This document shows positions 11,748 through 25,286 of a stretch of 35,323 nt of DNA, in pieces. The stretch is taken from the NCBI GenBank assembly GCA_950097035.1, contig CATNDT010000009.1, positions 1 through 35,323 on the forward strand. Reading direction: 5' to 3'. Each line of letters begins with the position of its first letter. Within the stretch, counting starts at the first letter, position 1. This stretch comes from an uncultured Oscillibacter sp. Its GTDB lineage: Bacteria > Bacillota > Clostridia > Oscillospirales > Oscillospiraceae. The notes under the pieces were generated by a model that was given only the letters and a program-made list of their open reading frames with translations, was not told where the DNA came from and did not search any database. Made by a program: the position numbers and the translations under genes.

Positions 11748-12626
11748 TCAATAGAATTCTTTTATGTACGCCTCCACGTCGGCCCGCGTCCCCATATAGG
11801 GACCGGGCGTCTCCATCTTTAAGGAGACCAGGGCCGTGGCGGTGCGGAGGGCCGTGGGGATATCCTGCGTCAGCCGCTCATTGATATAGCCCGCAAAAGT
11901 GGTGTCGCCCCGCCCGGTGCGGCCAGAGAGATTCCTGGCCCGGATGGGGCAGGTATGGATCTCTTTGCCGTCGTAAACCAGCACCTCGGTGTTATGGGTG
12001 ATCAGCACCTCTCTCGCACCCCAACTATAGAGCGTTCTGGCGGCCTCCGCCCGGTCTGTGAGGCCGGTGAGAATCTCCGCCTCCGCCGCGTCTGTCTTCA
12101 AAAAGCGGATATAGGGCAGCATCTCCCGCTTCTCCGCCCAGTCACGGTACACCATGCCGCCGTTTTCCACCCAGCGGAGCATACACTGCACATCGATGGC
12201 CACCATGGCCCGCTCCGCCGCAAAGGGAATGAGGTCGTTGGGAATATCGCCGCCCACAAGGCCCGCCAGATGCCAGATTGTGGCATCAATGGCGGGGATC
12301 TCCTCTGTGCGGTAGGGGTCGATCACGCTGTCTACCGTGGAGGTGCGCCGCTCCCGGTCCGGGGTGTGGTACACGTTTTTGGTCACAAAGGACCTCTTGC
12401 TGGGCAGGGCATACACCGTGGCGTTGGGCGCTTTGGCAAAGGCCTGGGCCAGCTCCTCCGCCGTCATGGCCGCCTTGGGCAGCACAGCGGTTTTGTGCCC
12501 CATATTGGCGGCGGCAAAGCCGGAATAGTACACCGCGCCGCCGATGGCCTGCACCGTGGTGCCGTCATAGTCCACGTTGGTGTCCCGGGCCACCTCTCCG
12601 ATAATCAGGGAATCAAACCGGCTCAT
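11748..12626 (-). CDS. PfkB-family carbohydrate kinase
   Basis: A 292-residue ribokinase-fold kinase. It has the N-terminal GGAVYYSGFAAANMG region for substrate binding and the C-terminal TGRGDTTFAGYI motif with the catalytic Asp and anion hole. The substrate cannot be read from sequence. Its start overlaps the stop of the PHP gene by four bases (ATGA), so the two are translationally coupled. The pair lies downstream of the LacI regulator and runs opposite to the HAD/phosphoglycerate-mutase-like operon, which suggests a role in the same sugar or sugar-acid pathway. Confidence 0.9.
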   Translation of the reverse strand: MSRFDSLIIGEVARDTNVDYDGTTVQAIGGAVYYSGFAAANMGHKTAVLPKAAMTAEELAQAFAKAPNATVYALPSKRSFVTKNVYHTPDRERRTSTVDSVIDPYRTEEIPAIDATIWHLAGLVGGDIPNDLIPFAAERAMVAIDVQCMLRWVENGGMVYRDWAEKREMLPYIRFLKTDAAEAEILTGLTDRAEAARTLYSWGAREVLITHNTEVLVYDGKEIHTCPIRARNLSGRTGRGDTTFAGYINERLTQDIPTALRTATALVSLKMETPGPYMGTRADVEAYIKEFY

Positions 12627-13354
12627 CTCAGCTCCCCCTTTCTGATCTTCTCATCCTCTTCAACAAAAAACTGAAATTCCGGACTCCACAAACGGAAGTT
12701 TCCGCTCTCGATCGCAGCTTTATAGGCAAAGGAGTCCTTTACCCGTTCCGGCAGAATCACACCGGTGCGGGCCTCGTCCCCGTCCCGATGAGTGTCGGAC
12801 CCGGCCAGCCGGTAATAGTCCGGATGCCGCAGGCACATGGCCAGGGCCTTATCGTTGTTGTTTTCGTGGCGGGGATTGCCGTTGATGATCTCAGCGCCAT
12901 GGACCGCGGTCTCCCGCACCGGGGCGCTTCCCTTTCGGAAGGGGTGGGCGTGGATAATCAGCACCTGATCGTGGTATTTATCAAAAAACTCCTGGGCGCT
13001 CATACAGCATATATAGGGATTGGACCGAAGCCACTGCTCATCAATGCCATACACCAGATAGTCGTTGTCGTTTTCCGGAAACCGCAGCTCCGCGCCCAGA
13101 ATCACGTCCAGCCCCACCTCATCGCCCCGCTTTTTGGAGGCGTGATAGCCGGTGAGATAGTGGTCCATCACGGCGTCCCAGCTGTGCTGCGTGTCGATCC
13201 GCGAGAGATACTCCGGGTGAAGATGGTCTGTGACCACCAGGCCGGAAAAGCCGTGGCGGATATAGCGGTCCACCACATCCGCCGCCGGCAGATGACCGCA
13301 CCTGCTGGTCTCCGCCGTGTGGGTGTGGGGGTCGTAGAGATAGCCGTTTGTCAT
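12623..13354 (-). CDS. PHP-domain phosphoesterase
   Basis: A 243-residue PHP-superfamily protein. Metal ligands are visible as DPHTHT, the CGH at 24-26, TDH, GAELRF, HAHPFR and GSDTHR, so the trinuclear metal site appears complete. Relatives hydrolyse phosphoesters such as histidinol phosphate, cyclic phosphates or nucleotides. I chose ATG 13354, preceded by AAAGGGAG, over an upstream in-frame ATG at 13447 that has no family support. Coupled to the PfkB kinase by a 4-bp overlap and placed just after the LacI gene. Confidence 0.88.
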   Translation of the reverse strand: MTNGYLYDPHTHTAETSRCGHLPAADVVDRYIRHGFSGLVVTDHLHPEYLSRIDTQHSWDAVMDHYLTGYHASKKRGDEVGLDVILGAELRFPENDNDYLVYGIDEQWLRSNPYICCMSAQEFFDKYHDQVLIIHAHPFRKGSAPVRETAVHGAEIINGNPRHENNNDKALAMCLRHPDYYRLAGSDTHRDGDEARTGVILPERVKDSFAYKAAIESGNFRLWSPEFQFFVEEDEKIRKGELR

Positions 13355-13373
13355 GGTTCTCGCTCCCTTTCTG

Positions 13374-13406
13374 AAAAAAAGGGGGGATCCGGCGGGCTGC
13401 CGCCGG
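13374..13406 (-). terminator. Terminator-like hairpin between lacI and the PHP gene
   Basis: CCGGCGG and CCGCCGG form a stem with a 4-nt loop; read leftward it is followed by CCCCCCTTTTTTT. It would end or attenuate lacI transcripts before the PHP-kinase pair. Confidence 0.7.
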
Positions 13407-13428
13407 GCCTCCCTGTATGATTTTTGAT

Positions 13429-14433
13429 TCAATCCAGCTTCCGGCAAGTGCCCCGCTTCACAAGGCTTGGCAGCAGAATCTGGTGAACATAGCCCTGGGT
13501 GCCGTGCTCGATCTTGTCCCGCAGCATATCCACGGCCTGAATCGCCATCTCCCGCAGGGGCTGCTCAATGGTGGTCAGCTCGATGCGGGGCAGCTCCGCA
13601 GAGGGAATATTGTCAAAACCAATGAGGCTCAGCCGCCCGGGAATATCGATCCGCTGCTCGTCCGCCGCCCGCATAAAGCCCAGTGCGTGGGAATCCGTGG
13701 AGGCGAAGACCGCGGTGTAGTCGATTGGCCTGGAGAAGAGCTCCCTTGCCATCTGATAGCCGTTGTTGATGGAAGAGCGGCCGTATTCGCTGTTGAAAAA
13801 GCGCTGCTGCAGCCCCAGCTCCTGACAGGCCCGCATATATCCCTCCGCCCGCAGCTGATGGGTCGTGGTGTGGCGGCGGCCAAAATATAAAATATCCCGG
13901 TGGCCCAGCTCATAGAGATACCTGGTGCCGATATAGGTGCCCCGGCTGTTATCCACCGTAACATAACTCTGGGGCTGATCCCGCAGGTTTTCGCTGACGA
14001 ACACCGTGGGCACCTGGTCTGTGTAGGCACGGATATTCTCATAGGTCTTTGCCCCCTGCGGCACAATGAGGATGCCATCCACCTGGCGGCCCAGCAGCAG
14101 CTTCACCACGGTCTTCTCCCGCTTCAGGTCCGGGCCGGAATTGCACAGCATGATGTTATACCCGTGGGCCCGGGCGCTCATCTCCGCGTGATAGGCCAGC
14201 TCTGACATGAACTGGTTGTCCACCGAGGGGACCACCAGGCCGATCAGATCCGTCTTTTTCATCACCATAGAGCGGGCCACATAGTTTGTGGTGTAGCCCA
14301 TTTCGTCGCAGAGCTTAATGATACGCTCCCGTGTGTCGCTGCCGATCTGCGGGCTTCCGGACAGGGCCCGGGACACCGTGGCATAGGAGACGCCGGCGGC
14401 TTTTGCCACATCCTTTAAGGTCACACTCTTCAC
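13429..14433 (-). CDS. LacI-family transcriptional regulator
   Basis: A 334-residue regulator of normal LacI length. Residues 4-25 are the DNA-reading helix-turn-helix (TLKDVAKAAGVSYATVSRAL). A hinge helix region (VARSMVMKKT) follows, then a periplasmic-binding-protein-like effector domain (IGLVVPSVDNQFMSELAYHA ... VTVDNSRGTYIGTRYL ... LSLIGFDN). The ligand is probably a sugar or sugar acid. A perfect operator lies in its own leader and another overlaps the divergent HAD-operon promoter region, so it likely represses both directions. It heads the leftward lacI-PHP-PfkB group. Confidence 0.94.
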   Translation of the reverse strand: MKSVTLKDVAKAAGVSYATVSRALSGSPQIGSDTRERIIKLCDEMGYTTNYVARSMVMKKTDLIGLVVPSVDNQFMSELAYHAEMSARAHGYNIMLCNSGPDLKREKTVVKLLLGRQVDGILIVPQGAKTYENIRAYTDQVPTVFVSENLRDQPQSYVTVDNSRGTYIGTRYLYELGHRDILYFGRRHTTTHQLRAEGYMRACQELGLQQRFFNSEYGRSSINNGYQMARELFSRPIDYTAVFASTDSHALGFMRAADEQRIDIPGRLSLIGFDNIPSAELPRIELTTIEQPLREMAIQAVDMLRDKIEHGTQGYVHQILLPSLVKRGTCRKLD

Positions 14434-14784: not shown

Positions 14785-15519
14785 ATGACCCCTGACATTC
14801 AGACGATTTTCTTCGACGTAGGCAATACCCTCCGCATTGTGCTCAAGGAGCAGGACTTTATCGACCGGGCCGAGGCCGGGCTTATGGAGCTGATCGGAAC
14901 CCACGAGAGTCACGACGAGCTCTTTGCCGGGCTGGAAGAGCGCTGGAAGAAATACCGCAAGATGTCCAAAGAGACGCTGCTGGACGCCTCAGAGGGCGAG
15001 CTGTGGACCCAGTATATGCTGCCCGAATACGACCCCAACATGATCTTTGCCAACGCCCCCAGGCTCACCCGGCTGTGGCGGGATCACGACGGCCGCCGGG
15101 TGGCACGCCCCGACGCGGTGTCCACCATCCGCGAGCTGCACGCCCGGGGCTATACCCTGGGTATCATCGCAAATACCGTCACCGAAACCGAGATTCCCGA
15201 CTGGATGGCTGCCGACGGCGTAGCCCAGTGCTTTAAAACCACGATTCTCTCCTCCAAGGTGCGGCTCCGCAAACCCAATCCTGAGATCTATCACCTGGCA
15301 TGCCGCTGCATCGGCACGCCGGAGGCCAACTGCGCCTATGTGGGCGACAACCCCGTCCGGGACGTGGAGGGCACCCAGGCCGCAGGCTTCGGCATGATGA
15401 TCCGCATCGACGAGCCGGACACGCTGAACACCGAGAAGGCCACCGGCAAGGAGTTTACCCCCGACCACGTTATCACAAAGCTGGGCGAGCTGCTGGATAT
15501 CTTCCCAGCCCGTACTTAA
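14785..15519 (+). CDS. HAD-superfamily hydrolase, paralogue 1
   Basis: A 244-residue HAD protein and first gene of the LacI-controlled operon. Motif I is FFDVGNT with the nucleophile Asp11; the second Asp of the usual DxDxT is Gly13. Motif II lies in LGIIANTVTE, motif III Lys in SSKVRLRKPNPEIY, and motif IV is YVGDNPVRD. An alpha-helical cap lies between motifs I and II. I chose ATG 14785, eight bases after AGGAGG; the TTG at 14767 lies over the ribosome site. It is followed 24 bp later by a close relative. Phosphatase activity on a small phosphorylated metabolite is the default inference but is weakened by the missing Asp. Confidence 0.88.
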   Translation: MTPDIQTIFFDVGNTLRIVLKEQDFIDRAEAGLMELIGTHESHDELFAGLEERWKKYRKMSKETLLDASEGELWTQYMLPEYDPNMIFANAPRLTRLWRDHDGRRVARPDAVSTIRELHARGYTLGIIANTVTETEIPDWMAADGVAQCFKTTILSSKVRLRKPNPEIYHLACRCIGTPEANCAYVGDNPVRDVEGTQAAGFGMMIRIDEPDTLNTEKATGKEFTPDHVITKLGELLDIFPART

Positions 15520-15543: not shown

Positions 15544-16281
15544 ATGGATCAGAACAAACGCTATAAGGCCGTCTTCTTTGATTTGGGCGGCACTCTCCGC
15601 ATTGCGCTGCTGGAGGAGCCCTGGATGCGCCATGCCCGGCGGAAGATGGCGGAGATCGCCGGCTCTCCCGTCCCCTATGAGGAATTTTACCGGATGGTGG
15701 AGGCGCGGTATGAGCCCTACCGCAAGTGGGCGCTGGATGAAAATAAAGAGTCGGGCGACGAGGAGCTGTGGTGCAAGTGGCTGCTGCCGGATTATGACCA
15801 GGCCCGCATCAAACAGATCTGCCATGAGCTGAGCTTCCAGTACCGCCAGTGCAAAGGCCGCCGGGTGGTGGTAGACGGCGGCGCGGAGGTCATCCGCGGC
15901 CTGCATGAGCGGGGCTATAAACTGGGCATCATCTCCAACCTTATCGGCGAAAACGAGGTGCCCGACTGGCTGGAGGAAGACGGTTTGGCCCAGTACTTTG
16001 ACGCTGTGGTGCTCTCCTCCGTCTGCCACATGAGAAAACCCTGCTTTGAGATCTACCAGCTGGCCGCCGCCAAAATGGGCGTGGAGCTTGGCGAGTGCGT
16101 ATCCGTTGCCGACAATATCAAGCGGGATATTCCAGGCGCCAAAAAGGCCGGCGTGGGCTGCAACATCATCTTTTCCTCTCCGGAGAAGAAACACCCTGTG
16201 GAGTTTACCGAGGAGAACCGCCCCGACGCGGTGATTGAGGATTTCCGGGAGATTTTGAATCTGCTGCCGGATCTGCGCTGA
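15544..16281 (+). CDS. HAD-superfamily hydrolase, paralogue 2
   Basis: A 245-residue HAD protein clearly related to its two neighbours along its full length (PYRKWALDE, CKGRRVVVDGGAEVI, LGIISNLIGENEVPDWLEEDGL). Motif I is FFDLGGT with nucleophile Asp13 and Gly in place of the second Asp. Motif III Lys is in MRKPCFEIYQ. Motif IV reads SVADNIKRD, so the usual Gly before Asp is Ala here. AGGAGG at 15526-15531 supports the ATG. Its place between two paralogues points to tandem duplication, perhaps with different substrate preferences or a hetero-oligomer. Confidence 0.88.
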   Translation: MDQNKRYKAVFFDLGGTLRIALLEEPWMRHARRKMAEIAGSPVPYEEFYRMVEARYEPYRKWALDENKESGDEELWCKWLLPDYDQARIKQICHELSFQYRQCKGRRVVVDGGAEVIRGLHERGYKLGIISNLIGENEVPDWLEEDGLAQYFDAVVLSSVCHMRKPCFEIYQLAAAKMGVELGECVSVADNIKRDIPGAKKAGVGCNIIFSSPEKKHPVEFTEENRPDAVIEDFREILNLLPDLR

Positions 16282-16340: not shown

Positions 16341-17117
16341 ATGAACACCGACATCCGTTACATCTTTCTGGACCTGGGCGGCACCTTCCGGGTAATTGAC
16401 GAGGACCCCGCCTACCTCTCTGCCGCCAGGGCCAAAATCGCCGAACTCTGCGGCGTGGAGACCGGCGACCCCAACCAGTGGTTTGCCGGCGTGATCGAAA
16501 CGCGCTATGACAAATACCGGGAGTGGGCTCTGAAATTCATGTGCGAGGCGCCGGAGGAGGTCCTGTGGACCCGGTGGCTGGCCTATGACATGGACCGGGA
16601 GCGCATTTTGAAAAACGCGGCGGAGCTGACGTATCAATACCGCCAGACCAAGGGCCGCCGCACAGTGGTGGCGGGCGGCGCAGAGACCGTAAAGGAGCTC
16701 TGCGCCCGGGGCTACACCCTGGGCATTATCAGCGACCTTGTGGGTAAGCGGGAGGTGGACGAGTGGCTGGACAACGACGGCCTGCGGCCCTACTTCAAAA
16801 CGGTCCAGCAGTCCTCCATCACCTACGTCCGCAAGCCCGGCCCCGCCATCTATTACTACGCCATGGAGGAAGTGGGCGCACAGCCGGAAAACTGCTGCTA
16901 CGTGGGCGACAATCTGAACCGGGACATTGTGGGCGCCAAGGCCTGCGATTTCGGCATGACCGTTACGGTGCAGTACAATAAAAACAAGCCCCTGAAGCTG
17001 ACGGAGGAGAACATGCCCGACGCCAAGGTCTATGCCTTCCCCCAGCTTCTGGACATCTTCCCCGCCTGCGGCCGGGTGGATACCGAAAAGCTGATTCTCC
17101 CCACCGACGGGCAGTGA
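16341..17117 (+). CDS. HAD-superfamily hydrolase, paralogue 3
   Basis: A 258-residue HAD protein, slightly longer than its neighbours at the C-terminus. Motif I is FLDLGGT (Asp11, again no second Asp). The shared block TYQYRQTKGRRTVVAGGAET matches paralogue 2 closely. Motif III Lys lies in YVRKPGPAIYYY and motif IV is YVGDNLNRD. GGAGGG precedes the ATG with normal spacing. The permuted phosphoglycerate-mutase-like gene starts 42 bp downstream, so all four genes form one operon. Confidence 0.88.
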   Translation: MNTDIRYIFLDLGGTFRVIDEDPAYLSAARAKIAELCGVETGDPNQWFAGVIETRYDKYREWALKFMCEAPEEVLWTRWLAYDMDRERILKNAAELTYQYRQTKGRRTVVAGGAETVKELCARGYTLGIISDLVGKREVDEWLDNDGLRPYFKTVQQSSITYVRKPGPAIYYYAMEEVGAQPENCCYVGDNLNRDIVGAKACDFGMTVTVQYNKNKPLKLTEENMPDAKVYAFPQLLDIFPACGRVDTEKLILPTDGQ

Positions 17118-17159
17118 GGCATTTTTTGATGCAATCTATCGAAAACTGGAGGTTTGATT

Positions 17160-18728
17160 ATGGCTGATTTCAAACGCGGCGGCGCACAGCTGGCAGAGGC
17201 CGTAAAAAAGGCGTATACACTGGGTCAGGACGACTATCATCTGGAGCCCATGGTCCTGACGGAGGGCGGCAGGCCCGTTGGCAAAATCTCAGACGGGGAC
17301 GCCGTCATCTTCTGCTGCCGCCGGGGCGAGCGGGAGATCGAGCTCACTGAGATGTTTACCGAAGAGGGCTTTGACAAAGCGGAGCGGCGCAGGCTGAACG
17401 ACCTGGATTTTGTCATTATGACCATGTACCACGACAAATTCAAGGACCTGCCCATCGCCTTTGCCCCCTCCCATGTGGTAAAGCCCCTGGCCCAGGTGTT
17501 GAGCGAGGCGGGCAAAACCCAGTTCCACTGCGCCGAGAGCGAGAAGTTTGCCCATGTGACGTTCTTCTTCAACGGCGGCGAGAACAACCCCTTCCCCGGC
17601 GAAGACGATGTGTGCATCCCCTCCCCCAAGGGCATTGATTTTGACCAGCAGCCGGAGCTTTCCCTGCCCAAGGTGGCGGACACGGTGATGGACGCCCTGG
17701 GCAAATACGACTTTGTGGTGACCAACTTTGCCAACGGCGATGTCATCGGCCACACCCAGAACACCGAGGCCAAGATCAAGGCCTGCGGCTATGTGAGCCG
17801 GTATCTGGACAAAGTGGTAAACGACGCGCTGGGCAAGGGCTATGTGGTGGCCGTCACGGCCGACCACGGCAACATTGAAAAACTCTATACCGCCGCCGGC
17901 AAGCCCGACGGCGCCCACACTACAAATCTGGTTCCCTTTATTATGATCGACCCCGCCGACGCCGGCCCCATCCGCCTTCGGGACGGCTCTCTGGGCGACG
18001 TGGCCCCCACGGTGCTGGACGTGATGGGCATTCCCCAGCCCGCTGAGATGGACGGCAAATCCCTGGCCGAGGGCAAGGCCTGGGGCGACGGGCGGAAAAT
18101 GCTGCTCATCATCTGCGACGGCTGGGGACTTGGCACCGGCGACGAGGGCGACGCCATCCATATTGCCGAAACCCCCTATTGGGACGCTCTGCTTGCAAAC
18201 CAGTCCTGGTCCAAACTCCACGCCTCCGGCGAGCATGTGGGCCTTGGCGGCGGAAAGGCCGGCAACTCCGAGGCGGGCCACTCCAACCTGGGCGCAGGCC
18301 GCTGTGTGATGCAGGATGACGTCCGGCTGGACACCGCTGTAAAGGACGGCACCTTTAAGGAGAACCCCATCTTCCTGGAGGCCATTGAGCACGCCAAAAA
18401 GAACGGGACATCTCTGCACCTGCTGGCCTATCTCACCTACAAGTCCTCTCACGGCTGCATCGACTATCCCCTGAACATCTGCGAGATGGCCAAGGAGCAC
18501 GAACTGGACCGGGTCTATTTCCACATCATTTTCGACGGCCGCTCCACCGAGCCCGGTTCCGCTCCGGCACTGCTGGCCGAACTGGACCAGCGGCTGGAGG
18601 CCATTGGAGCAGGCCGCGTGGTAGACGGCGTGGGCCGCGGCGTAGTGCTGGACAGGGACAAGAACTACGACAAGGTCAAGCGGGCCTATGACGCTATGGT
18701 AGAGGGCGCCGGCACACAGTATGAATAA
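17160..18728 (+). CDS. iPGM-like protein with circularly permuted halves
   Basis: A 522-residue relative of 2,3-bisphosphoglycerate-independent phosphoglycerate mutase whose sequence order is swapped. Residues 1-305 correspond to the usual second half: DGDAVIFCCRRGER, ESEKFAHVTFFFNGG, NFANGDVIGH, TADHGN, AHTTN, DVAPTVLDVMG. Residues 313-522 correspond to the usual N-terminus: MLLIICDGWGLG, GNSEAGHSNLGAGR, DGRST, VLDRDKNYDKV. Metal and phosphoserine residues are kept: D194, H198, D235, H236, H253, D320 and S370. Substrate residues R55, R58, K129, H431, R493 and R499 are also kept. The Asp of DGRD is Ser462, and the usual LSDGGVH loop reads LTYKSSH. The ATG at 17160 follows GGAGG. A mutase or phosphatase on a changed substrate is my inference. 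Confidence 0.85.
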   Translation: MADFKRGGAQLAEAVKKAYTLGQDDYHLEPMVLTEGGRPVGKISDGDAVIFCCRRGEREIELTEMFTEEGFDKAERRRLNDLDFVIMTMYHDKFKDLPIAFAPSHVVKPLAQVLSEAGKTQFHCAESEKFAHVTFFFNGGENNPFPGEDDVCIPSPKGIDFDQQPELSLPKVADTVMDALGKYDFVVTNFANGDVIGHTQNTEAKIKACGYVSRYLDKVVNDALGKGYVVAVTADHGNIEKLYTAAGKPDGAHTTNLVPFIMIDPADAGPIRLRDGSLGDVAPTVLDVMGIPQPAEMDGKSLAEGKAWGDGRKMLLIICDGWGLGTGDEGDAIHIAETPYWDALLANQSWSKLHASGEHVGLGGGKAGNSEAGHSNLGAGRCVMQDDVRLDTAVKDGTFKENPIFLEAIEHAKKNGTSLHLLAYLTYKSSHGCIDYPLNICEMAKEHELDRVYFHIIFDGRSTEPGSAPALLAELDQRLEAIGAGRVVDGVGRGVVLDRDKNYDKVKRAYDAMVEGAGTQYE

Positions 18729-18862: not shown

Positions 18863-19009
18863 ATAGCCGCAGCGAGCAAAACCCGGTTTGGGGGTTTCGC
18901 AAAATGTGTGAACGCACACAGCTTCAAGATCCCCTGCTTTGGCCGGTTCAGCGCCTATGCAAAAGTCCGGTGCGGAAAGCATTACGACATGGAAAGGAAG
19001 AGAGACCCA

Positions 19010-19843
19010 ATGAACGAGAAAAAACTCAAGGTTTTGGCGGCCGAGATCCGGCTGGAGACTTTGAAAGTCATCCACAGCCGGGGCTTTGGTCACGTGGGCG
19101 GCTCCATCGATCTGGCGGATCTGATGGCCGTGCTGTACGGCGAGGTCATGAAGTTCGACCCCAAAAATCCCCGCTGGGAGGACCGGGACTGGCTGGTGCT
19201 CTCCAAAGGCCACGCCGGCCCGGTGGCCTACGCCACCTTTGGCCTCATGGGCTTCTATCCCATGGAGGAGGCCTATACCCTCAACCAGCCCGGCACCAAA
19301 TTCCCCAGCCACACCGACCGCAAGCTCACTCCCGGTGTGGATCTCACCACCGGCTCGCTGGGCCAGGGCGTGTCTACCGCCACCGGCGCGGCCCTGGGCA
19401 ACAGGATCGACGGCCGGGATAACACCGTTTACTGCGTCATCGGCGACGGAGAGGCCGACGAGGGCCAGGTATGGGAGGGCTTCCACTTTGCCTATGCCCA
19501 CAAGCTGGACAATATCATCTATTTCATTGACAATAACGGCTATCAGCTGGACGGCCCCACCAGGGACATTCTGGAGCACGCCGACATTGCGAAAAAGGCG
19601 GAGAGCTTCGGCCTTTACACCCAGGAAATCGACGGCCACGATGTGATCGCCATCTACAACGCCATCCAAAACGCCAAGGCCCGCAAGGGCGTGCCCAGCT
19701 GCATCGTGCTGGATACCTGCAAGGGCAAGGGCGCGACATTTGCCGAGCCCAAGCACGACCACTCCTCTCAGCCCAAGGAGGAGCAGTGGCTGGAGGCCAT
19801 CGCCGCTTCTGAAAAAGAGCTGGAAGATGCGAAGAACGCTTAA
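19010..19843 (+). CDS. Transketolase, N-terminal (TPP-binding) subunit
   Basis: A 277-residue protein covering the thiamine-diphosphate-binding half of transketolase. It has GHVGGSIDLADLMAVLYG at the N-terminus, LSKGHAGPVAYA, GSLGQGVSTATGAALGNR, and the TPP/Mg motif GDGEADEGQVWEG ending in DNNGYQLDG. Split transketolases with N and C subunits are common in Firmicutes and archaea. The next gene starts 15 bp downstream and encodes the other half. The ATG at 19010 follows GGAAAGGAAG. Transfers two-carbon ketol units between sugar phosphates; a dedicated donor or acceptor in this cluster is likely but not known. Confidence 0.93.
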   Translation: MNEKKLKVLAAEIRLETLKVIHSRGFGHVGGSIDLADLMAVLYGEVMKFDPKNPRWEDRDWLVLSKGHAGPVAYATFGLMGFYPMEEAYTLNQPGTKFPSHTDRKLTPGVDLTTGSLGQGVSTATGAALGNRIDGRDNTVYCVIGDGEADEGQVWEGFHFAYAHKLDNIIYFIDNNGYQLDGPTRDILEHADIAKKAESFGLYTQEIDGHDVIAIYNAIQNAKARKGVPSCIVLDTCKGKGATFAEPKHDHSSQPKEEQWLEAIAASEKELEDAKNA

Positions 19844-19858
19844 AGGAGGGTGAGAGAG

Positions 19859-20830
19859 ATGAATGTGAAACTGATCGGTAAACACGAAAAGGATACCCGG
19901 GCCTGCCGGGACGGCCTGGCTCTGACCCTGAATGAGCTGATGGCCAAAGACCAAAGCATCTGCTATGTAGACTGCGACCTGATGGGCTGCATCAACACCA
20001 AGCAGCTGCGGCAGAATTACCCGGACCGGGCCTTTGAGGCCGGTATTGCCGAGGGCAACGCCGCCGGCATCTCCGCGGGCCTGGCCGCCACAGGCAAGAA
20101 GGTGTTCTTCCACTCCTTCGGCACATTTTCCTCCCGCCGCTGTTATGACCAGATTTATATGTCCGCCGCCTACGCGGGCCTTAGCGTGCGGGTTCTGGGC
20201 AGCGACGCAGGCGTGACGGCCGCTTTCAACGGCGGCACCCACATGCCCCTGGAGGACGCGGCCATGTACCTCTCCATCCCCGAGTCCACCGTGCTGGACC
20301 CCGCCGACTACGACCAGCTGGCCAGCATCACAAGGGGCCTTGTGAACGTGGAGGGCGTGAGCTTCACCCGCTTTGTCCGCAAGGATGTGATCCAGGTCTA
20401 CGGCGAGGGCAGCGAGTTTGAGATCGGCAAGGGCGTGGTTCTCCACGAGAGCGACGAGGACCAGGCCTCCATCATCACCTCCGGCATCATGGTGGACGAG
20501 AGCCTGAAAGCCTACGAGGCCCTTCAGGCTGAGGGCATCCACGTCCGCGTCATCGACATGTTCACCTGGAAGCCCCTGGACGAGGCGCTGGTGATCAAAG
20601 CCTCCAGGGAGACCGGGGCCATCGTCACGGCAGAAAACCACAACACCACCTGCGGCCTTGGCAGCGTAGTGGCCAACTGCCTGGTGAAAAACTGCCCCAC
20701 CCCGCAGGAGTTTGTGGGCGTGCAGGACCAGTTCGGTCAGGTAGGTCCCCAGGCCTTTCTGATGGACACCTACGGCCTCCGCGCCGCCAACATTGTGGAG
20801 GCCGTCAAAAAGGCAATTTCCCGTAAATAA
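19859..20830 (+). CDS. Transketolase, C-terminal subunit
   Basis: A 323-residue partner of the preceding subunit, with the pyrimidine-binding domain (DCDLMGCINTKQLRQNYPDRAF then EAGIAEGNAAGISAGLA, containing the catalytic Glu). It also has the central FHSFGTFSSRRCYDQIYMSAAYA, and a C-terminal domain with VRVIDMFTWKPLDE and TAENHNTTCGLGS. The ribosome site AAAGGAGGG overlaps the upstream stop codon, indicating coupled translation and 1:1 assembly. The ATG at 19859 is preferred to a GTG at 19850 inside that site. Confidence 0.93.
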   Translation: MNVKLIGKHEKDTRACRDGLALTLNELMAKDQSICYVDCDLMGCINTKQLRQNYPDRAFEAGIAEGNAAGISAGLAATGKKVFFHSFGTFSSRRCYDQIYMSAAYAGLSVRVLGSDAGVTAAFNGGTHMPLEDAAMYLSIPESTVLDPADYDQLASITRGLVNVEGVSFTRFVRKDVIQVYGEGSEFEIGKGVVLHESDEDQASIITSGIMVDESLKAYEALQAEGIHVRVIDMFTWKPLDEALVIKASRETGAIVTAENHNTTCGLGSVVANCLVKNCPTPQEFVGVQDQFGQVGPQAFLMDTYGLRAANIVEAVKKAISRK

Positions 20831-20871
20831 TTTTGGTTGACCCAGCAAAATTTTAAAGGAGATTGATTATT

Positions 20872-22059
20872 ATGGCTCAGAAAATGGACGCTTTTTCCGC
20901 CTCTCTGATGGCCGACAAGCGGGAGATCATCTTCGCCCCCACCGTATATAAGTTTGATACCTTCGCCGCCATGGCAGAGGAGTTCAAGCTGAACGAGCGG
21001 GACGTGGTGCTGACCAACGAATTTATCTACACCCCCTTTATGAAGGACCTGAATCTCAAGTGCCAGTATGTGTTCCAGGAGAAGTTCGGCGCCGGCGAGC
21101 CCAGCGAGGAAATGATCCAGATCATGTACGACGCCATTCCCTACGACAGCTATGACCGGGTTATCGCCGTGGGCGGCGGCGCTATCATGGACCTGTGCAA
21201 GCTGCTGGGCTGCAAGCGGCCTGACACCGTGCACAACCTGTATTTCAAGCGCTTCCCCGTGCAGCATGAGAAGGACGTGATCGCCATCCCCACCACCTGC
21301 GGCACCGGCAGTGAGTGCACCAACATCTCCGTTGCCATCGTAAAGGATGAGAAGGACGGTCAGCTCACCGGCGGCGAGACCAAGCTGGGCCTGGTCAGCG
21401 ACGACATCATCCCCAACAAGGTCTGCCTGATCCCGGACCTTATCAAGACGCTGCCCTACAAGCCCTTCGCCTGCTCCGCCATCGACGCGCTGGTCCACGC
21501 CACCGAATCCTTCCTGAGCCCCCACCGCAAGACCATGACAAGCGAGCTGTTCAGTGAAAAGGCCATGGATATGATCCTCAAGGGCTTTAAGCTGATTGAC
21601 GAGAAGGGTCAGGACGCCCGGTTTGAATATCTCGACGAGTTCGTCACGGCCAGCTTTTACGCCGGCATTGCATTTTTGAAAGCCGGCTGCGGCCCTGTGC
21701 ACGGCATGAGCTTCCCTCTGGGCGGCACGTATCACGTGGCCCACGGCGAGAGCAACTATATGCTCTTTGGCGCCATTCTGGACTACTATGACGAGAAGAA
21801 CCCCGACGGTGAGATCATGCGCTTTAAGGAGCTGGTGGCCGGCATCCTGGGCTGCGGAGCCAGGGACGCCATCCCCACTCTCAACGCCCTGCTTCAGCGC
21901 ATCCTGCCCCTGCGCCCCCTGCGGGACTGCGGGTTCACCGAGGCGGACTTCAAGGCCTTCCCCCTCTCTGTGGAGGCCAACCAGCAGCGCCTCATGACAA
22001 ACGCCTACTACCCCTTCGACCTGGACGCCGAAGAGGCCATTTACAGAAAGTGCTTCTGA
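20872..22059 (+). CDS. Iron-containing alcohol dehydrogenase, 4-hydroxybutyrate dehydrogenase-like
   Basis: A 395-residue group III alcohol dehydrogenase. It has the NAD-binding AVGGGAIMDLCKLL, the IPTTCGTGSECTN motif, and metal residues in SAIDALVHATES, GPVHGMSFPLGG and HVAHGESN. The start (PTVYKFDTFAAMAEEF, LTNEFIYTPF, FQEKFGAGEPSEEMI) resembles the 4-hydroxybutyrate dehydrogenase of Clostridium kluyveri, as I remember that sequence. It would interconvert an omega-hydroxy acid or small polyol with its aldehyde, using NAD(H). AAAGGAG at 20856-20862 supports ATG 20872. It is last in the cluster and may reduce an aldehyde produced by the upstream enzymes. Confidence 0.9.
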   Translation: MAQKMDAFSASLMADKREIIFAPTVYKFDTFAAMAEEFKLNERDVVLTNEFIYTPFMKDLNLKCQYVFQEKFGAGEPSEEMIQIMYDAIPYDSYDRVIAVGGGAIMDLCKLLGCKRPDTVHNLYFKRFPVQHEKDVIAIPTTCGTGSECTNISVAIVKDEKDGQLTGGETKLGLVSDDIIPNKVCLIPDLIKTLPYKPFACSAIDALVHATESFLSPHRKTMTSELFSEKAMDMILKGFKLIDEKGQDARFEYLDEFVTASFYAGIAFLKAGCGPVHGMSFPLGGTYHVAHGESNYMLFGAILDYYDEKNPDGEIMRFKELVAGILGCGARDAIPTLNALLQRILPLRPLRDCGFTEADFKAFPLSVEANQQRLMTNAYYPFDLDAEEAIYRKCF

Positions 22060-23021: not shown

Positions 23022-23040
23022 CACAGCGGAACCCGCTGTG
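23022..23040 (+). promoter_or_regulatory. Hairpin in the exosporium divergent intergenic region
   Basis: CACAGCGG and CCGCTGTG form a perfect 8-bp stem with a 3-nt loop in the 208-bp gap between the two divergent exosporium genes. The gap also holds several CATA-rich elements that could be SigE/SigK -10 regions, but none is clear enough to place. Confidence 0.35.
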
Positions 23041-23151
23041 TGCCGGCGGCATAGGATATCACGGGCCCGCTGCTTGCAGCATATCCCATACCCCGCACCG
23101 TTTCGCGGCATACGCGCAGGCAGCCCCCAATTTGAAAGGAGATTCTCTCTT

Positions 23152-24123
<972 letters not shown>

Positions 24124-24130
24124 TCTCATT

Positions 24131-24160
24131 GGAGGAGACGCCCTTTCGGGCGTCTCCTCC
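24131..24160 (+). terminator. Hairpin after the collagen-like gene
   Basis: GGAGGAGACGCCC and GGGCGTCTCCTCC form a 13-bp stem with a TTTC loop. There is no T run, and the glycosyltransferase ATG follows 20 bp later, so it may allow partial read-through. Confidence 0.65.
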
Positions 24161-24179
24161 ACCCATGGAGTGAACTACT

Positions 24180-25286
24180 ATGAACGCATCAACACCGGTT
24201 TCCCCAATAACTGTCAGCCTGTGTATGATTGTAAAGGATGAGGAGGAGGCTCTGACCCGGTGCCTGGAGAGCGTCTCCGGTCTTGTGGAGGAAATTGTGA
24301 TCGTAGACACCGGTTCCACGGATAAGACCAGAGATATCGCCGCCGGATTCACCGACAAGGTTTATTCCTTTACATGGATAGACGACTTCGCGGCGGCCCG
24401 CAACGAGGCATTTTCCCATGCCACAATGGACTACTGCATGTGGCTGGACGCAGACGATGTGCTTCTGGAGTCAGACCGGGAGGCCTTTCGGACCCTGAAA
24501 GAGACGCTGGACCCCGCTGTATCCGTGGTAATGGCCCCCTATCACACCGGATTTGATCAGGAGGGCCGTGTCACCTTCTCCTATTATCGGGAGCGGCTCA
24601 TCAAAAACCACGCCGGCATGCGCTGGGAGGGGGCGGTGCACGAGGCCATTACCCCTTCGGGACAGGTCGTTTACGCAGAGTTTGCCGTCACCCACCGCAA
24701 GCTCCGCCCCTCAGACCCGGACCGAAACCTGCAGATCTACGAAAAGCAGCTGGCCGCCGGAGCGGTGCTGGACCCCCGGCAGGAGTTTTACTATGGCCGG
24801 GAGCTCTACTATCACCGGCGCTACGCGGAGGCCCGCGCGGTCTTTGAGCGTTTTCTCTCAGGCGGCCGGGGCTGGGTGGAAAACAACATCGACGCCTGCT
24901 GCCACTGCGCCTATTGCTGCGAGCAGCTGGACGAACCGGAAAAGGCCATGGAGGCGCTGCTTCGCAGCTTTCTCTTTGACCGCCCCCGGGCCGAAGTCTG
25001 CTGTGAGCTGGGCCGCTGCTTTTTTCAGCAGGAGCGGTTCAGCCAGGCCGCCTACTGGTACGCCCTGGCGCTTACCTGCCCCCGTGACGACCAGCGGGGC
25101 GGCTTTGTCTGTCCGGACTGCTACGGCTATCTCCCCTGTATTCAGCTCTGCGTTTGCTGCAGCCGCCTGGGCAACCAAAAACAGGCGGAGCACTTTAATG
25201 AGCTGGCCGCCTCCTACAAGCCGGAGTCCCCGGCGGTCCTTCACAACCGGATCTATTTTCAAGGTCTCGCCGAGAAAGCAAATTAG
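24180..25286 (+). CDS. GT2 glycosyltransferase with TPR-like C-terminus
   Basis: A 368-residue protein. Residues 12-110 are a GT-A fold family 2 transferase (SLCMIVKDEEEALTRCLESV, IVDTGSTDKT, and the DxD-type metal site in WLDADD). Residues 180-360 are helical, TPR-like repeats (YYGRELYYHRRYAEARAVFE, AYWYALAL). They are rich in cysteine (CCHCAYCCEQL). Its place directly after the collagen-like gene mirrors the bclA3-sgtA arrangement of Clostridioides difficile, so the Thr-rich collagen repeats are the likely acceptor. GGAG precedes the ATG. The sugar donor is unknown. Confidence 0.88.
   Translation: MNASTPVSPITVSLCMIVKDEEEALTRCLESVSGLVEEIVIVDTGSTDKTRDIAAGFTDKVYSFTWIDDFAAARNEAFSHATMDYCMWLDADDVLLESDREAFRTLKETLDPAVSVVMAPYHTGFDQEGRVTFSYYRERLIKNHAGMRWEGAVHEAITPSGQVVYAEFAVTHRKLRPSDPDRNLQIYEKQLAAGAVLDPRQEFYYGRELYYHRRYAEARAVFERFLSGGRGWVENNIDACCHCAYCCEQLDEPEKAMEALLRSFLFDRPRAEVCCELGRCFFQQERFSQAAYWYALALTCPRDDQRGGFVCPDCYGYLPCIQLCVCCSRLGNQKQAEHFNELAASYKPESPAVLHNRIYFQGLAEKAN

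Follow-up and report, generated by a model that had tools for sequence, protein, structure and literature searches.

A gene in a 35,323-nucleotide stretch of DNA from an uncultured Oscillibacter sp. (contig CATNDT010000009.1; the whole stretch is called the window) encodes a complete, natural circular permutant within the cofactor-independent phosphoglycerate mutase (iPGM) family. The gene, here named cpPGM, is a single open frame on the forward strand at 17160..18728, starting with the ATG at 17160, and its product has 522 residues. The sequence GGAGG is found at 17148-17152, 7 bases 5' of the ATG. The best explanation overall, and a likely one, is a permuted iPGM subfamily of single apparent origin that has probably been neofunctionalised. 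The original prediction, made from the letters of the window, knew of no described permuted iPGM. None was found in the open-access literature either, as judged from titles and the starts of abstracts, subscription papers lying outside the search.

As that prediction held, the two halves of iPGM occur in swapped order and the landmark motifs stand where it had placed them. DGDAVIF (residues 45-51), NFANGDVIGH (189-198), TADHGN (233-238) and AHTTN (252-256) are in the first part of the protein, and LLIICDGWGLG (315-325) and GNSEAGH (368-374) are in the second. When compared with solved structures by phmmer, cpPGM 13-302 aligns with residues 218-508 of 1EJJ, which is among the best iPGM matches, at 222 bits, and cpPGM 314-521 aligns with 1EJJ 6-213 at 143 bits. 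The identity to GpmI (1EJJ/1O98) is about 34-45% per block. Just four 1EJJ residues separate the two matched blocks, placing the cut at about 1EJJ 214-217, and a linker of about 11 residues (cpPGM ~303-313) connects the former C- and N-terminus. Judged by its sequence, this is a clean permutation with no visible duplicated remnants.

The cut falls inside the transferase domain and leaves the phosphatase core continuous, an arrangement also proposed at the outset and supported by the 1EJJ alignment. The domain limits of 1EJJ place the core at about residues 104-384. The N-terminal residues 1-103 (17160..17468, +) are the second half of the ordinary-iPGM transferase domain and carry R55 and R58 (1EJJ R261 and R264) in the segment FCCRRGERE. 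The continuous phosphatase core (17469..18311, +) contains the metal ligands, the nucleophile S370, K129 and the new linker. The first half of the transferase domain is now C-terminal (residues 385-522; 18312..18725, +) and carries H431, R461, S462, R493 and R499. NCBIfam TIGR01307 matches cpPGM in two stretches, with a whole-protein score of 465 bits against a cut-off of 330.65, and PF01676 scores 195 bits against 24.3. The protein has the metalloenzyme core and two-metal site of the alkaline phosphatase superfamily. By sequence it has both iPGM domains, but not the co-linear domain order of GpmI, the transferase halves being at both ends.

A single rotation restores co-linearity. Native cpPGM and cpPGM rotated at residue 313 were each compared with 43 canonical proteins. 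The native protein gave two high-scoring segment pairs against all 43 (median best 204 bits over 295 columns), the two off-diagonal blocks expected against GpmI, and the rotated protein gave one against all 43 (median 350 bits over 516 columns). When the rotation point was scanned in steps of 10 against one of the canonical proteins, L041, the score peaked at 310 with 370 bits, the native order scoring 223.

The swapped order recurs in other genomes. Exact peptide patterns derived from cpPGM, a procedure that favours near relatives, were scanned against 84,980 species genomes, and 80 of the 94 loci confirmed were kept. These comprise 35 complete same-order homologues, two more truncated by contig ends, and 43 loci of canonical order. 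The 35 complete homologues are 64-91% identical to cpPGM and come from separate named assemblies; permuted carriers include records whose titles give a strain and do not call them MAGs (Oscillibacter sp. 1-3, O. valericigenes An860 and An890). Twelve further homologues (38-64% identity) have the same cut point, and the cut is common to all sequences read. Together, the two domains, the single rotation, the same-order homologues and the common cut are the features of a circular permutation. An assembly or gene-fusion artefact, which might be suspected in a fragmented draft genome of 339 contigs, is refuted by the same-order homologues that had been foreseen, since these are strongly conserved in separate assemblies including isolates.

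A whole-genome search of the window's genus found cpPGM in 11 of 25 genomes, the window's own included. Wider samples were searched with an E-value limit of 1e-90, which parts permuted from canonical sequences and would miss divergent permuted members. One carrier beyond the window's genome was found among 394 genomes of the order (G084, 64% identity), and 11 in four families among 398 genomes of the phylum (38-41% identity). The 301 genomes from the phylum of G043, titled Flexilinea (Chloroflexota), contained one carrier beyond G043, G826 (41% identity). Going by record titles, many of the bacteria that carry cpPGM are from animal guts.

A tree built from 48 permuted and 41 canonical rows places all 48 permuted ones on one side of a single branch, so that one change of order suffices, with a support of 99. 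By this tree the permuted order very probably had a single origin. The tree is of a quick kind, and the exact placement of L112 (from G826), which has a very long branch, is unsure. It leaves out repeats (L085-L087), truncated sequences (L039, L040 and L110) and two of the 43 canonical rows, which lacked a landmark.

The catalytic center is intact, as had been claimed. All 48 permuted sequences retain the metal ligands D320, D194, H198, D235, H236 and H253 together with the nucleophile S370. They correspond to 1EJJ D12, D403, H407, D444, H445, H462 and S62, the six metal ligands and the phosphoserine of GpmI. The same triads are named for C. elegans iPGM. K129 (1EJJ K336), H431, R461, R493, R499, R55 and R58 are also kept in all 48.

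The substrate site shows changes. The legend of Fig. 4 in PMC5382265 gives the phosphoglycerate-binding set of S. aureus iPGM as positions 123, 153, 154, 185, 191, 257 and 260, which become 123, 153, 154, 185, 191, 261 and 264 in 1EJJ numbering; it labels 153-154 jointly as Asp, and the alignments made here read 153 as Arg and 154 as Asp. Six of the seven positions are kept in all 48 permuted sequences, and position 154 (cpPGM S462) is replaced in all 48: it is Asp in 43/43 canonical proteins, and Ser (47) or Gly (1, L112) in the permuted ones. In iPGM, D154 has an acid/base role. In addition, the H123 loop GGVHS is (x)SSHG in 48/48 permuted sequences, and NFRPDRA is (C/A)CRRG(D/E)RE in every one except L112. 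The residue beside R261 is Arg in 47/48 permuted sequences and Phe (36) or Tyr (7) in the 43 canonical ones; two canonical rows of this residue tally are gapped at D12, S62 and H123. Because Asp154 is absent and the H123 loop and NFRPDRA are changed, the housekeeping interconversion of 3-phosphoglycerate (3PG) and 2-phosphoglycerate (2PG) is thought not to be the role of cpPGM.

In most of the carriers examined, cpPGM coexists with another phosphoglycerate mutase (PGM), and for this reason too it is probably not the housekeeping enzyme. Canonical-order iPGM is also present in 6/6 carriers reached via named loci (G042 among these is the same as G007). Of 13 further carriers, nine have GpmI above its cut-off; in the remaining four it is apgM that scores above the cut-off, with G826 also having dPGM. 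Thus cpPGM is not the sole mutase in three genomes of family f80 and in G826, as had been considered, since apgM is found in all four and dPGM in G826. Pieces of canonical iPGM are present in 8 of the 11 carriers in the window's genus; in the window's genome the piece is terminal on a contig of 4,922 bases and ends at the point where a canonical protein would. A housekeeping-only role is unlikely given these coexisting enzymes. The original prediction therefore stands in its architecture, and the plain iPGM function that it implied is doubtful, with position 154 changed and other PGMs coexisting.

The genes around cpPGM are conserved and suggest a dedicated organophosphate pathway. For the near members, which have the gene arrangement of the window, counts were made over 37 permuted loci, some of which end before the distance of the neighbour sought. 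Upstream of cpPGM are three HAD-like genes on the forward strand, the first at 14785..15519 (motif I DVGNT, which lacks the second Asp; start codon uncertain), the second at 15544..16281 (DLGGT) and the third, directly upstream of cpPGM, at 16341..17117 (DLGGT). A HAD gene lies directly upstream of the permuted gene, with a gap of at most 138 bases, in 36/37 loci; in L025 about 950 bases lie between. Three to five tandem paralogous HAD matches fill the space between the LacI gene (or the locus start) and cpPGM in 35/37 loci. Motif I is DxGxT in all 135 readable copies and never DxD, which means that these copies lack the usual acid/base Asp; the remaining four of the 139 matches lack the N-terminal part and are unreadable at this motif. 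DxGxT recalls phosphonatases and dehalogenases.

Three genes on the reverse strand run away from this cluster. The divergent LacI-family repressor (13429..14433) has a match in 31/37 loci, and three of the six loci without one have fewer than 2,600 upstream bases. It is followed by a PHP-domain-like protein (12623..13447; 24/37 loci), which scores 25.5 bits against the PF02811 cut-off of 26.4 and whose start is probably further in, and by a PfkB/ribokinase-family kinase with the RXGRGD motif (11748..12626; 20/37 loci). The kinase matches TM0415 over its full length, and at an E-value of 1e-3 its only solved relatives are TM0415 entries and 7E4L. TM0415 is a pyrophosphate-dependent myo-inositol kinase, and PMC5931981 proposes for it a signature of K171, F221, R229, R232, M266 and the motif RXGRGD. 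RXGRGD, K171 and M266 have matches in 14 of the 20 kinase copies, the other six (147-243 residues) running off the locus start. The window kinase differs from TM0415 at the F221 position, where a large hydrophobic residue is expected and Ile is found. From these residues, the neighbouring kinase is predicted to be pyrophosphate-dependent.

On the 3' side the loci vary. In L023, L025, L027 and L028, MgtC-like and membrane-pyrophosphatase genes (named from L025) come after the permuted gene; in L024, L031 and L033 a membrane-pyrophosphatase gene does, and in L026 an ABC transporter. The MgtC-like gene, with the membrane (H+/Na+) pyrophosphatase gene after it, lies directly 3' of the permuted gene at L025:7628-10384, L023:1896-5024 and L028:7585-10698.

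The distant members have other neighbours; the common theme of the gene contexts is small phosphorylated metabolites. The gene order GntR/UTRA regulator, c6, binding protein, permease, ATPase, cpPGM is found in four loci in families f67, f80 and f92; the transporter genes make up an ABC importer similar to those for phosphate esters. Of the other loci, L111 starts at c6, L110 is truncated, and in L107 the transporter genes are rearranged. The regulator is similar to HutC and PhnF, and the binding protein to PhnS2, all below curated cut-offs. The best solved relatives of the binding protein are 4R72, which presumably binds sugar phosphates, and the pyridoxal-5-phosphate binder 6WCE. The c6 gene encodes a homologue of cyclic 2,3-diphosphoglycerate synthetase (cDPGS), matching 8ORK and 8ORU over its length with an E-value of ~1e-158; such homologues are at L101:1916-3256, L102:1364-2707, L104:1143-2522, L109:1067-2398 and L111:140-1504. 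The importer is absent from family f86. There cpPGM sits between RapZ-like and phosphohexomutase-like genes (named from L105) in L105 and L106, with the RapZ-like gene only in L103 and the phosphohexomutase-like gene only in L108.

Going by its sequence, a changed substrate or reaction of cpPGM appears rather probable. The protein would fold as the usual two-domain enzyme, with the continuous phosphatase core (~104-384) covered by a transferase lid built from both chain ends. A small acidic phosphate ester, bound by H431, R461, R493, R499, R55 and R58, would donate a phosphoryl group to the metal-activated Ser370, which would hand it on. Most likely cpPGM thereby transfers or removes the phosphate of a phosphoglycerate-like organophosphate, of three carbons or similar, within an accessory pathway under regulation that may be 2,3-diphosphoglycerate (2,3-DPG) metabolism. 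cpPGM is filed as a permuted subfamily and not as GpmI because its domain order is not co-linear, one substrate contact is replaced and its activity is predicted only.

Several observations tell against a neofunctionalised permuted enzyme of this kind. First, the predicted structure has a predicted local distance difference test score (pLDDT) below 50 at residues 103-106, 128-141, 247-253, 359-373 and 375-385, and is weak at the active site. Second, Foldseek and VIA-align, which align in sequence order, matched one of the two blocks of this structure. The superposition on iPGM foreseen in the original prediction was thus obtained for one block, the other not being listed; the unlisted half does not count against permutation, as these aligners work in order. 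Matches to FtsZ and ketoreductase structures look like common Rossmann-like arrangements. Third, the six kept phosphoglycerate-binding positions and K336 leave room for plain mutase activity. Fourth, three same-genus carriers (G005 and G012, 71-80% complete, and G015, 91% complete) show no match to canonical iPGM or dPGM, apgM not having been sought. Fifth, a full-length cDPGS homologue is present in 6 of 44 genomes searched, five in the cpPGM operon and one on another contig, and two further genomes have weak, partial matches. No cDPGS was found in 25 genomes of the window's genus, to which the link may not carry over, nor in G647 (93% complete), which has a related transporter beside cpPGM.

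Three other functions were weighed. Action as phosphomutase or phosphatase on some other organophosphate (an inositol phosphate, a sugar-acid phosphate or a phosphonate) in a catabolic operon is unlikely, though the most probable of the three. In its favour are the kinase closest among solved structures to TM0415, the PhnS2-like binding protein with its relatives 4R72 and 6WCE, the regulator resembling HutC and PhnF, and the HAD motif with its phosphonatase and dehalogenase likeness. Against it, the phosphoglycerate site has lost none of its His and Arg contacts, a point in favour of a three-carbon acid, and TM0415 relatives may use other acceptors. Slightly less probable is an ordinary second PGM, permuted yet interconverting 3PG and 2PG under a LacI-type repressor, with Ser replacing Asp154. 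The invariant serine nucleophile, metal ligands, H123, R153, R185, R191, R261, R264 and K336, the score over the TIGR01307 equivalog cut-off and the three same-genus carriers above would agree with it; the loss of Asp154, the family-wide rebuilding of the H123 loop and NFRPDRA, and another PGM in most carriers argue otherwise.

A shade more doubtful is a phosphotransferase that either forms 2,3-DPG, the phosphoserine handing its phosphate to another phosphoglycerate, or degrades it, and so supplies or depletes a pool of cyclic 2,3-diphosphoglycerate (cDPG). The six genomes with full-length cDPGS and the Arg beside R261 favour it, as does the finding of no 2-phosphoglycerate kinase among the operon's six identified genes, this kinase not having been sought elsewhere; cDPGS was found neither in the window's genus nor in the other clades searched. 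Any link of cpPGM to di- or cyclic diphosphoglycerate is tentative. It is the most specific hypothesis, and it rests on one branch of the family. In its fullest form, an improbable one, the subfamily, permuted once, would have become a new bacterial phosphotransferase for the synthesis or turnover of 2,3-diphosphoglycerate, its cyclic form or something closely analogous. In the HAD/kinase operons its pathway would then be pyrophosphate-driven, with the predicted pyrophosphate-dependent kinase and, in some loci, the membrane pyrophosphatase nearby.

Compared with GpmI (1EJJ/1O98, TIGR01307), the permuted enzyme has the same two domains, phosphoserine, two-metal site and six of seven substrate contacts plus K336. 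It differs in the swapped order, the change of D154 to S/G, the rebuilt H123 loop and NFRPDRA, the operon context and in being usually an extra copy beside another PGM. With apgM, phosphopentomutase DeoB and other mutases of the alkaline phosphatase superfamily it has the metal-binding phosphatase core in common; matches of the apgM/DeoB type are weak, far under the cut-offs and confined to part of that core. The cDPGS pathway of Methanothermus fervidus is related through the cDPGS homologue of some distant cpPGM operons, and both may concern phosphoglycerates. As outlined in PMC12136491, the archaeal cDPG route runs through 2-phosphoglycerate kinase and then cDPGS, without a cpPGM-like enzyme. 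The homologues found here lie outside the hyperthermophilic methanogens, to which cDPG is said to be exclusive in PMC10690619.

With cpPGM scoring above the equivalog cut-off of TIGR01307, such proteins are probably listed in databases as ordinary GpmI and may be assigned to glycolysis in metabolic models. A natural cut inside the inserted domain has made the host domain of a discontinuous two-domain enzyme continuous. cpPGM is a case provided by nature for testing whether the usual chain connections between the domains are required for iPGM catalysis, and it allows one to ask how circular permutation accompanies new function. Its operons point to an organophosphate pathway not recognised in this analysis.

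Downstream of cpPGM in the window are genes of less certain relevance. A two-gene transketolase-like pair (18908..20830, +; the start of the first gene is not settled) has matches in 20 and 16 of the 37 loci. An Fe-dependent alcohol dehydrogenase 3' of the pair (20863-22059, +), closest to Cvir-Hbd2 (30SM), probably has a separate function; with its match in 16 loci, it and the transketolase pair are unlikely core partners. Further along, at 23038-25286 (+), a collagen-like repeat protein with a BclA C-terminal domain is followed by a family 2 glycosyltransferase.
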